From Candidatus Peribacteria bacterium (GTDB lineage Bacteria > Patescibacteriota > Gracilibacteria > Peribacterales > Peribacteraceae): a stretch of DNA of 64,000 nucleotides. The position numbers and the translations under genes are program-made. This document shows, in pieces, positions 42,684-45,898 of this stretch. The notes below the pieces were generated by a model. It was not told the origin of the DNA and did no database searches. It worked only from the letters and a program-made list of their open reading frames with translations. Where the stretch lies: contig JAHFJP010000001.1 of assembly GCA_023245765.1 (NCBI GenBank), positions 1 through 64,000 on the forward strand, read 5' to 3'. The first letter of the stretch is position 1; each line of letters begins with the position of its first letter.

Positions 42684-43394
42684 GTGAATCAGGAGCCAAT
42701 TCTCATCGAGCCTCTGTCGCCACTCAAGCCGATTTATCTGATGTCCGAACAAGGAGTGACCGACGACCAGATGCGGGCTATTACCGAGGGTATTCATGCG
42801 GTGCTCAATGTGGCGCAACAGAAAATGCCAATTTATGACTTTGGTCATTGGCGTCATACGCAGTGGCGTGACAATGGACAATTGCGGCCGTTCCACAGTG
42901 TTGATTGGTATCTTGAACGAGCACAAGAAGAGAGCGATCGTGCAGAGCAACTAAACGCAGACACCCTGCTCAATCTGCTCGCCATGGAACCCTGGCGCAA
43001 TCCCGATGAGGGCGGTCAACGTCATTATGACGTCGTTGTTCTCCAGAGTGATCTGTATTCCGGAAGCGACAACAACCGTTTCATTATTGGAGGAGCGTAT
43101 CCCGATCTGGGAGCGGCGATCTCCGTGAACAGATTTCAAGGATTGGAACCATCGTTGCAATTTGATTGCATCGTGACGGAGACCATCCACGAGATGGGCC
43201 ATGTTTTCGGACTCATACCTCCTGGGCGTCAAAGGAATGTTGAAGAATCGTTGGGAAAGCACTGCACAAACGTCTGTAGTATGCGACAGGGGGTGAATGT
43301 GCCGATGGATTGGATTCGGTTTACCCGCGATCGTCTTCAGCAAGGACCATTCTGCACTGACTGTGAACAGGACCTGCGAGGGTTCTTTGCATAA
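42684..43394 (+). CDS. archaemetzincin-like (M54-type) zinc protease
   Basis: A 236-residue protein. HEMGHVFG at 169-176 is the metzincin HExxHxxG site. It is followed by HCTNVCSM (193-200) and FCTDC (223-227), reminiscent of the archaemetzincin pattern HExxHxxGx2HC-x4-M-x17-CxxC, but with about 17 extra residues before the HC and longer spacing later. The start is GTG 42684, behind TATAAA and TTGACT. No signal peptide, so probably cytoplasmic. The Met of the 'Met-turn' would be Met200. AT-rich, between dnaA and thrS. Confidence 0.78.
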   Translation: MNQEPILIEPLSPLKPIYLMSEQGVTDDQMRAITEGIHAVLNVAQQKMPIYDFGHWRHTQWRDNGQLRPFHSVDWYLERAQEESDRAEQLNADTLLNLLAMEPWRNPDEGGQRHYDVVVLQSDLYSGSDNNRFIIGGAYPDLGAAISVNRFQGLEPSLQFDCIVTETIHEMGHVFGLIPPGRQRNVEESLGKHCTNVCSMRQGVNVPMDWIRFTRDRLQQGPFCTDCEQDLRGFFA

Positions 43395-43420: not shown

Positions 43421-43426
43421 TACACT
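43421..43426 (+). promoter_or_regulatory. -10 element (TACACT) of the thrS leader
   Basis: TACACT ends six bases before the GTG of the leader peptide, so the leader itself is probably translated from a leaderless transcript. Confidence 0.55.
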
Positions 43427-43432
43427 CCGAGC

Positions 43433-43480
43433 GTGATCCGCTTCATCACCACGACCGCGACGACCACGACCCTCCTGTAG
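43433..43480 (+). CDS. threonine-rich leader peptide of thrS
   Basis: A 15-codon frame from GTG 43433 to TAG 43478-43480 encodes MIRFITTTATTTTLL, with seven Thr codons in an eight-codon run (ACC and ACG). It lies directly between a -10 box and the hairpin of a terminator, with its stop codon inside the 5' arm, exactly as in amino-acid operon attenuators. Stalling at the Thr codons when charged tRNA-Thr is short would change the folding of the RNA downstream. Too short for usual gene finders. No other evidence of expression is available. Confidence 0.72.
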   Translation: MIRFITTTATTTTLL

Positions 43481-43538
43481 GGATGGCTCTCGCGTGCGGT
43501 GAATCCCAGAGCCTCCCCCTACCGAGGTTCTTTTTTTT
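43477..43538 (+). promoter_or_regulatory. transcription attenuator of thrS
   Basis: The terminator stem pairs GTAGGG (43477-43482) with CCCTAC (43517-43522) and GGCTCT (43485-43490) with AGAGCC (43508-43513), followed by TTCTTTTTTTT (43528-43538). A competing hairpin, GGGAT (43480-43484) with ATCCC (43503-43507), shares the 5' arm, so both cannot form together. No T-box sequence is present. Confidence 0.7.
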
Positions 43539-43561
43539 CCTGTACGTTTCCCCGTACCACC

Positions 43562-45898
43562 ATGCCGCTCGATACCTATTCCAAGCTGATTGAACTGCTC
43601 GATCAGCATAAAGCGAAGTACCGCCTGATCGATCACGAGCCCGAGGGCCGGACCGAAATCGTGAGCAAGATGCGCGGCAACAACGTCTCGCAGGCGGCGA
43701 ACTGCATTGTCATGATGTTGAAGATTGGGAAGAAAGAGACGAAGTACGTCCTCGCTGTCTATCCCGCGGATAGGAAGCTTGATTTCAATGCAGTGAAAGC
43801 ATTGTTCAATGGAACCTACGCGTCGTTCGCGACCAAGGAGAAAGCGGAAGAACTTGCGGGCAGCGTTCTTGGGACGGTGCTGCCGTTTTCCTTCAATGAC
43901 GATCTCGAACTCATTGTCGATCCTCTTCTTCTGGAGAATGAGGAGATCTTCTTCAATGCCGCACGGTTGGATCGTTCCATGGCGCTGAAAACGAAAGACT
44001 ATGTCGCGATCACGAAACCGCGGCTCGAATCCATCGCGCAGTCAGCATCATCCGCATCAACCGGAGTCGCGGTTTCACCGGGCAAAAAGAAAGAAGGACC
44101 TGTCGTCGATGATCTCTACAAACTGCGCCACTCGCTCGCACACGTGCTCGCGCAGGCGGTGACTAAACTCTGGCCCGCGACCAAGATCACGATTGGGCCG
44201 CCAATTGAGTACGGCTGTTACTACGATTTCCTCTTCGAGAAGCCAATTTCCGAGGAGCACTTCCCCGCGATCGAGAAGGAGATGAAGAAGATCATTCAAC
44301 AAGGTCAGACCTTCCGATGCGATGAACTTTCCGCAGCCGATGCCAAGAAATTTTGGAAGGGTCGCAAGCAGCAGTTCAAAGTCGAACTCATTGAAGATCT
44401 GGAGAAGAACGACAAGGTCACGACCGTGACCAACTACGCCAACCTCGGTCCGAAAGGGGAGGAGACGTTCGTCGATCTCTGTCGTGGCGGCCATGTGGAG
44501 AATCTGAAGGAAATTCCCGTCGACGCATTCAAGATCATGACATTGGCCGGTGCCTACTGGAGAGGGGATGAGAAGCGCGAGCAGCTCACCCGGATTTATG
44601 TCGCCGCGTTCCCATCGAAAGCCGAACTCGATCAATATCTGCTGATTCTCGAAGAGGCCCGCAAGCGCGACCACCGCAAGCTTGGCAAGGAACTTGATCT
44701 CTTCACGTTCAGCGAACTCGTCGGGCCCGGACTTCCTTTATGGACTCCGCGGGGAACACTGCTGCGGAATTTATTGGATGGCTATGTGTGGGAACTGCGC
44801 AGCGCGAAAGGCTACGAGCGCGTGACGATCCCGCACATCACCAAAAAAGAACTCTACGAGACGTCCGGGCACTGGCAGAAATTCCAGAACGATCTGTTCC
44901 ATGTGCGGACGCGTGAGGGGCATGACTTCTGCATGAAGCCGATGAACTGCCCGCACCACACGCAGATCTTCGCGAGCAATCAACGGAGTTACCGCGATAT
45001 GCCGCAGCGGTACGCCGAAACCACGACCTGCTACCGCGACGAGCAGACGGGTGAACTGCACGGGCTCTCGCGCGTTCGGGCCTTTACGCAAGATGACGCG
45101 CACGTCTTCTGTCGTCCAAGTCAGGCGAAAGACGAGATCCTGAAGATCTGGGAGATCGTCGATACGTTCTACCAGACGGTCGGATTTGGAAAGCTCCGCG
45201 TACGTCTCTCACTGCACGATCCTGCTGCGTTTGAAAAATATCTCGGCACGCCCGCGATGTGGAAGAATGCGGAAGGGGAGCTCCGGAGTATCGCGGTCGA
45301 TCGCAAGGCGGACTTCTTTGAAGCACCCGGTGAGGCGGCATTCTACGGTCCCAAAGTCGACTTCATTGCAAAAGATTCCATCGGACGCGAGTGGCAGGTG
45401 GCGACGATCCAGCTCGATATCAACATGCCCGAGCGGTTTGACCTCTTCTGCATCGATGAGAAGGGCAACCACGAACGCTGCGTGATGATCCATGCGGCGA
45501 TCATGGGATCGCTCGAGCGCTTCCTCTCGATCTTCATCGAACATCATGCGGGCCTCTTCCCGCTCTGGGTCGCGCCTGTACAGGTGGGCCTCATCCCCGT
45601 TGCGGGAAGTCATGAAGATGCCGCCCGCGCGCTCGAGGCACAGCTCAAACAACACGGCATCCGGACGCAGTTCTTCGGTCATGAAGACTCACTGGGGAAG
45701 AGAATCCGTGATGGAGAGATGTGGAAGATTCCCTATCTGCTCGTGATGGGGGATAAGGAGGTGGAAGCGAAGAGTGTGACGGTCCGCAACGTCAAAACCA
45801 AGAAGCAGGTAACGGCGTCGATCCATGAGTTCCTCACCAAGACGATGGAGGACGTTCGGGACAGACGGTTGGAAGCGTCGATTGGAATACTAGAGTAA
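43562..45898 (+). CDS. thrS: threonyl-tRNA synthetase with N-terminal YbaK-like domain
   Basis: A 778-residue class II synthetase. The N-terminal 165 residues (LLDQHKAKYRLIDHEPEG, ANCIVMMLKIGKKETKYVLA) look like a YbaK/ProXp deacylase domain where a TGS domain normally sits. Then come the tRNA_SAD editing domain (KLRHSLAHVLAQ with HxxxH, and CRGGHVEN with CxxxH), the catalytic core (MKPMNCPHHTQIF, the motif 2 region TTCYRDEQTGELHGLSRVR with its Arg, and motif 3 near HAAIMGSLERFLSIFIEHH), and the anticodon domain. It charges tRNA-Thr. The start is ATG 43562; an in-frame ATG-like extension to 43499 lies in the attenuator. Confidence 0.94.
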   Translation: MPLDTYSKLIELLDQHKAKYRLIDHEPEGRTEIVSKMRGNNVSQAANCIVMMLKIGKKETKYVLAVYPADRKLDFNAVKALFNGTYASFATKEKAEELAGSVLGTVLPFSFNDDLELIVDPLLLENEEIFFNAARLDRSMALKTKDYVAITKPRLESIAQSASSASTGVAVSPGKKKEGPVVDDLYKLRHSLAHVLAQAVTKLWPATKITIGPPIEYGCYYDFLFEKPISEEHFPAIEKEMKKIIQQGQTFRCDELSAADAKKFWKGRKQQFKVELIEDLEKNDKVTTVTNYANLGPKGEETFVDLCRGGHVENLKEIPVDAFKIMTLAGAYWRGDEKREQLTRIYVAAFPSKAELDQYLLILEEARKRDHRKLGKELDLFTFSELVGPGLPLWTPRGTLLRNLLDGYVWELRSAKGYERVTIPHITKKELYETSGHWQKFQNDLFHVRTREGHDFCMKPMNCPHHTQIFASNQRSYRDMPQRYAETTTCYRDEQTGELHGLSRVRAFTQDDAHVFCRPSQAKDEILKIWEIVDTFYQTVGFGKLRVRLSLHDPAAFEKYLGTPAMWKNAEGELRSIAVDRKADFFEAPGEAAFYGPKVDFIAKDSIGREWQVATIQLDINMPERFDLFCIDEKGNHERCVMIHAAIMGSLERFLSIFIEHHAGLFPLWVAPVQVGLIPVAGSHEDAARALEAQLKQHGIRTQFFGHEDSLGKRIRDGEMWKIPYLLVMGDKEVEAKSVTVRNVKTKKQVTASIHEFLTKTMEDVRDRRLEASIGILE

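Follow-up and report, generated by a model that had tools for sequence, protein, structure and literature searches.

In Escherichia coli the thrLABC operon is preceded by the thrL attenuator, which combines a short leader peptide carrying a dense run of threonine codons with alternative hairpins and an intrinsic terminator. The Patescibacteria are a very large group of mostly uncultured bacteria with small genomes, and regulation in them is almost unexplored. Elsewhere, leader-peptide attenuators have been described at aminoacyl-tRNA synthetase genes, namely pheST in gamma-proteobacteria and trpS and leuS in Streptomyces (PMC1262725), and a His leader lies at hisS in Bacillus (PMC2965389). The trpL attenuator of Sinorhizobium meliloti is leaderless, in that its RNA begins with the ATG of a 14-codon leader (PMC7298713), and a leaderless thrL has been proposed upstream of thrS, the threonyl-tRNA synthetase gene, in Streptomyces lividans TK24 (PMC8079986). 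A literature search on attenuation and leader peptides in Patescibacteria returned nothing relevant among sources that exclude most subscription journals. Here we analyse a 64,000-nucleotide stretch of Patescibacterial DNA (the window), in which the region upstream of thrS very probably forms a ribosome-mediated transcription attenuator, by which thrS expression is adjusted to how much threonyl-tRNA is available. Its parts are as follows:

43421-43426, plus strand: -10-like box TACACT, read from the sequence, 6 nt upstream of the leader GTG
43433-43480, plus strand: leader peptide frame MIRFITTTATTTTLL, with a GTG start, 15 codons, 7 of them Thr, and a TAG stop at 43478-43480
43448-43471, plus strand: regulatory codons ACC ACG ACC GCG ACG ACC ACG ACC (7 Thr)
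43457-43493, plus strand: predicted 1:2 (protector) hairpin, from the minimum-energy fold of 43433-43545
43485-43490, plus strand: arm 2, the antiterminator 5' strand GGCTCT, which pairs with 43508-43513
43508-43515, plus strand: arm 3, AGAGCCTC, the antiterminator 3' strand and at the same time the terminator 5' strand
43524-43538, plus strand: arm 4, the terminator 3' strand GAGGTTCT with the T run, from the terminator scan and the fold
43562-45898, plus strand: thrS, threonyl-tRNA synthetase (TIGR00418, 640 bits)

The whole element spans about 120 nt. Much of it had been called in the original prediction, and the sequence bears out a 15-codon GTG frame with seven Thr codons downstream of TACACT (43421-43480), a GTG six bases past the -10 box (box end 43426, GTG 43433) and a terminator hairpin with a T8 tract. 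The terminator has the layout AGAGCCTC-N8-GAGGTTCT followed by the T run, its arms lying at 43508-43515 and 43524-43531 and the T8 at 43531-43538, and thrS starts 24 nt downstream of the T run. Two details had to be corrected: the frame does not end inside the terminator 5' arm but 27 nt upstream of it, and the arm shared by the competing structures is not part of GGGAT/ATCCC but is AGAGCC (43508-43513, the terminator 5' arm), whose partner is GGCTCT (43485-43490). GGGAT (43480-43484) and ATCCC (43503-43507) form a separate helix outside the terminator arm, and the core of the 1:2 hairpin in the minimum-energy fold is CCCT (43470-43473) paired with AGGG (43479-43482). The element thus holds a short frame of cognate codons, an intrinsic terminator, an antiterminator that shares an arm with it and, in silico, a choice of hairpin that depends on ribosome position.

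The thrS product carries the Pfam domains tRNA-synt_2b, HGTP_anticodon, tRNA_SAD and tRNA_edit. Besides its own SAD editing domain it has an N-terminal editing domain of the YbaK/ProX type (PF04073, residues 32-148; 43562-44100); this N-terminal part also aligned in the enzymes of G049, G039 and G054, and most threonyl-tRNA synthetases of the family are without it. Between dnaA and thrS lies a 236-aa frame (42684-43394) that matches no Pfam family but contains HEMGH, a motif like that of metalloproteases.

No clear -35 box was seen upstream of TACACT (43421-43426). The position of the leader start relative to the -10-like box is nevertheless strongly preserved: a TANNNT box ends 6-9 nt upstream of the start codon in 14 of the 15 thrS leaders found by first inspection of upstream regions (background 5.3%, binomial tail 2e-17), the same spacing is seen in 12 of 14 further loci, and in the GTG-started leaders the box is exactly 6 nt away, so that transcription would be expected to begin with the G of the GTG. 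A Shine-Dalgarno-like tetramer was found upstream of none of the 15 leader starts. Because a TANNNT box so placed precedes nearly all leaders, the leader is probably leaderless, its GTG lying at the RNA 5' end or directly beside it, with the transcription start taken from the spacing. At 10 of the 15 loci thrS itself is preceded, at a distance of 7-10 nt, by another TANNNT box, and is thus likely to have an additional transcript that is leaderless; thrS in the window has no such second box, and on its read-through mRNA a Shine-Dalgarno-like site was not found. Judged from sequence, leaderless transcripts may be common in the window's genome. Of the window's 35 frames that reach 200 aa or more, one has a Shine-Dalgarno-like pentamer near a start candidate, and 10 have a TANNNT box 5-9 nt before it.

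What the analysis shows are the parts, their conservation and the predicted dependence on ribosome position; from these we infer the transcription start, the translation of the leader, the termination and the response to the amino acid in the cell, as follows. RNA polymerase would start at the leader GTG or within a few nt of it, and a ribosome would initiate at the RNA 5' end without a Shine-Dalgarno site. When Thr-tRNA is scarce, that ribosome would stall on the first Thr codons and break the 1:2 hairpin, leaving GGCTCT free to pair with AGAGCC; this pairing would block the terminator, and thrS would be transcribed. With plentiful Thr-tRNA the ribosome would reach the TAG and cover GGCTCT, the terminator would form and transcription would end near 43538. 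If the leader were not translated at all, the 1:2 hairpin and the terminator would both form, and transcription would likewise end.

The dependence on ribosome position was modelled by placing the A site of a ribosome at each codon in turn, masking 13 nt downstream and folding the RNA that the ribosome did not occupy; the folding is at equilibrium and not co-transcriptional. In the window the terminator has a predicted probability of 0.00 when the A site lies on codons 5-9. The value is 0.52 for codon 11, exceeds 0.9 from codon 12 onwards and reaches 0.96 when the ribosome is at the stop codon; it is also 0.96 with no ribosome on the RNA. This dependence indicates that the first codons of the Thr run are the ones that matter, as would be expected if the ribosome stalls the first time its A site is left empty. 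The contrast in the window was matched by 0 of 200 shuffles, and at 11 of the 15 thrS loci no more than 1 of 200 equalled it, tests in which the relatedness among loci is ignored; L019 was matched by 4 of 200, and in the remaining three loci (L024, L027 and L043) the switch was not clearly above the shuffles in this simple folding test. Most of the 14 further loci show a similar contrast, which is less clean in L147, L149, L200 and L202.

When the thrS leaders were aligned with MAFFT, RNAalifold returned no consensus pairs. Since the arms shift between thrS loci in the alignment, we relied on the ribosome-position test above and on a test in which arms were swapped between loci. Arm 2 pairs with the arm 3 of its own locus at a mean of -18.7 kcal/mol, compared with -13.6 kcal/mol for swapped arms, and 0 of 10,000 permutations (uncorrected for relatedness) were as good; the window's own duplex, at -17.6 kcal/mol, ranks first among the 15 possible partners. 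Arms 3 and 4 also pair better within than between loci (permutation p = 1e-4, again uncorrected for relatedness). For the aspartokinase-type leaders (below), column-wise pair counting on the MAFFT alignment A3 neither supported nor contradicted covariation.

Almost every one of 57 family genomes has thrS, and the named near relatives of the source genome are Candidatus Peribacteria. The 15 loci from the first inspection, of which L019 and L024 are weak cases, include the leaders MIHFVTTTTTTTTLQ (L002, from the window's genus), MQHLFVTTTTTTTTSF (L027), MHLLRTTTTTTTTPMRRS (L044) and MSQRATTTTTTTTSR (L049). A sequence profile built from 13 of these 15 loci and searched across all 74 family genomes added eight thrS loci, so that at least 23 of the 74 genomes (two of them weak), in 15 of 40 genera, have a Thr leader and terminator at thrS; the counts are minima because the profile uses sequence only and upstream sequence was read for part of the family genomes. 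In those genomes the element consists of a Thr run, a stop codon, competing arms and a terminator, followed by thrS. All four Thr codons (ACA, ACC, ACG and ACT) are used among the relatives, and it is therefore the amino acid and not the nucleotide string that is conserved. Extending the search with this profile to the class and phylum yielded leaders of thrS in families f16 (L200), f10 (L202 and L203), f39 (L209) and f69 (L211), and 90 thrS genes sampled phylum-wide gave one clear leader, in f6 (L231); outside the family, then, six genomes in five other Patescibacteria families have a Thr leader at thrS, with the same stop codon, competing arms and terminator. The comparison of relatives proposed with the original prediction thus came out in its favour, and together with the modelled switch it supports the predicted layout of ribosome-mediated attenuation. 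The element is real and recurrent but patchy: it is absent from about two thirds of the family genomes, including G024 (L003) of the window's own genus, and many genomes have instead a TANNNT box directly upstream of thrS.

Some candidates were set aside during this survey. An Asp/His-rich +2 frame over the leader is a by-product of codons that start with A; it is not conserved where the third bases of the Thr codons vary (L047), is not the frame of the GTG or ATG adjoining the -10 box, and was rejected as a real frame. The R1 matches L160, L201, L204-L208 and L210 have no supporting leader or gene and were regarded as chance. The threonyl-tRNA synthetase frame of L203 (G157) stays open only with TGA decoded as Gly, which extends the occurrence of the Thr leader to a genome apparently using code 25.

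The hairpin could simply end transcription of the gene upstream (42684-43394), which is on the same strand and ends at 43394, 114 nt before the hairpin, with the Thr-rich frame being accidental. Yet relatives with different upstream sequence keep the order of box, Thr frame, arms and terminator before thrS, and the own-arm pairing and position switch exceed their controls; as to accident, the leader is the only frame of 8-30 codons with at least six Thr in a nine-codon span on either strand of the 64-kb window. We give this explanation a very slight chance. There is a slim chance that the leader works chiefly through translation or RNA stability, or through a Thr peptide acting in trans, instead of through transcription termination: the S. 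meliloti leader peptide peTrpL functions in trans (PMC7298713), and at two f68 loci the Thr run is present and a U tract is not evident. A U tract follows the hairpin in nearly all thrS cases, however, the T8 of the window among them, and the arms compete for the terminator and not for the thrS start 24 nt past the T run.

The remaining alternative to an attenuator read by a translating ribosome is an RNA that senses its ligand directly, a T-box or riboswitch, beside which the short frame would be incidental. T-box matches do lie directly upstream of thrS in other Patescibacteria (G310, G340, G354, G328 and G419), although all five are below the curated cut-off. A search of the window region against Rfam gave no convincing family match, Thr_leader did not match it up to E = 10, and the T-box model (RF00230) matched neither this region nor any of 40 family genomes; moreover, the element of about 120 nt has no conserved aptamer beyond the leader frame and terminator arms. 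Direct sensing here has barely any chance of being correct. The T-box matches elsewhere mean that thrS seems to have two alternative sensors of tRNA charging in one phylum, and suggest that its control has been exchanged between T-box and leader peptide.

Threonine, methionine, lysine and isoleucine belong to the aspartate family of amino acids, and the thrS-leader profile also matched leaders before other genes. Fifteen family genomes have divergent aspartokinase genes, distant from the curated aspartokinase models, and a leader rich in Thr, Lys and Met with a terminator precedes all but one of the readable ones (leader loci L183-L187, L190-L193, L195, L197, L198 and L152). A Thr/Lys leader, MPMSATVTTTKTKTARKRG, precedes asd (L164). 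The codons of these aspartokinase and asd leaders are cognate, a point in favour of the attenuation proposed at thrS. A second profile found related leaders, rich in Met, Lys or Ile, in 41 of the 74 family genomes. Scans of the window's own genome with two RNA models gave a second strong case of a leader-peptide attenuator, MLRTLVTTTTKTTTSRQGRVQLQ (L161; G000:C70:1283-1410), upstream of a 259-aa gene that matches no Pfam family. The next gene there resembles an acetyltransferase and is truncated where the contig ends. A close aspartokinase was not found in this genome.

Met-rich leaders (for example MMMSMMMTPLRGGC) with terminators also lie before proteins of unassigned function (L320, L327, L329, L333, L337-L339 and L332), several of which share an 'N-APR' motif and possibly constitute an uncharacterised methionine-related family. 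Met-rich leaders and terminators occur at L341, L342 and L343 as well, with hisS about 300-400 nt downstream in L341 and L342, and Lys-rich (L323, L324, L326, L335 and L336) and Ile-rich (L159 and L345) leaders precede further genes without an assigned function.

The related leaders at aspartokinase, asd and other genes, which were less thoroughly tested than those at thrS, suggest a wider regulon. We lean towards the view that Peribacteria and their relatives have an aspartate-family regulon of leaderless attenuators (Thr at thrS, Thr/Lys/Met at nearly all aspartokinases, Thr/Lys at asd, and Lys, Met and Ile before unassigned families) in which codon content predicts the amino acid of the gene and which replaces the T-boxes of other Patescibacteria. 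If the attenuators work as proposed, transcription and translation would be tightly coupled and leaderless RNAs efficiently initiated in these reduced cells, and leader codon content would provide testable functions for uncharacterised genes.

Among the known systems, the T-box likewise responds to tRNA charging in its control of synthetase genes, thrS of some other Patescibacteria among them, but it binds the tRNA directly, involves no leader translation and has no match in the window's family. The pheST, trpS, leuS and hisS leaders similarly place a synthetase gene under a leader rich in its own amino acid, with other amino acids and in other phyla. The S. meliloti trpL attenuator differs in serving a Trp operon and in having a mapped transcription start, where ours comes from box spacing. 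The E. coli thrL attenuator (Rfam Thr_leader) resembles the window element in its short Thr-dense leader, alternative hairpins and terminator; here, however, the target is a synthetase gene and not biosynthesis, the leader start adjoins the -10 box, the codon run is without Ile, and Rfam gives no match. The S. lividans thrL also stands before thrS and is reported as leaderless, but its frame MKRVRPFLETTPGFVPAR has just two Thr codons and a clear intrinsic terminator is missing there (PMC8079986), compared with the seven Thr codons, competing arms and T8 of the window. The original expectation of novelty holds for the phylum but has to be moderated for thrS as a target, for which this proposal is one weak published precedent. 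The mechanism is of a known kind; what appears to be new is that it occurs in this phylum, that it has all four arms at thrS and that it likely serves a regulon.
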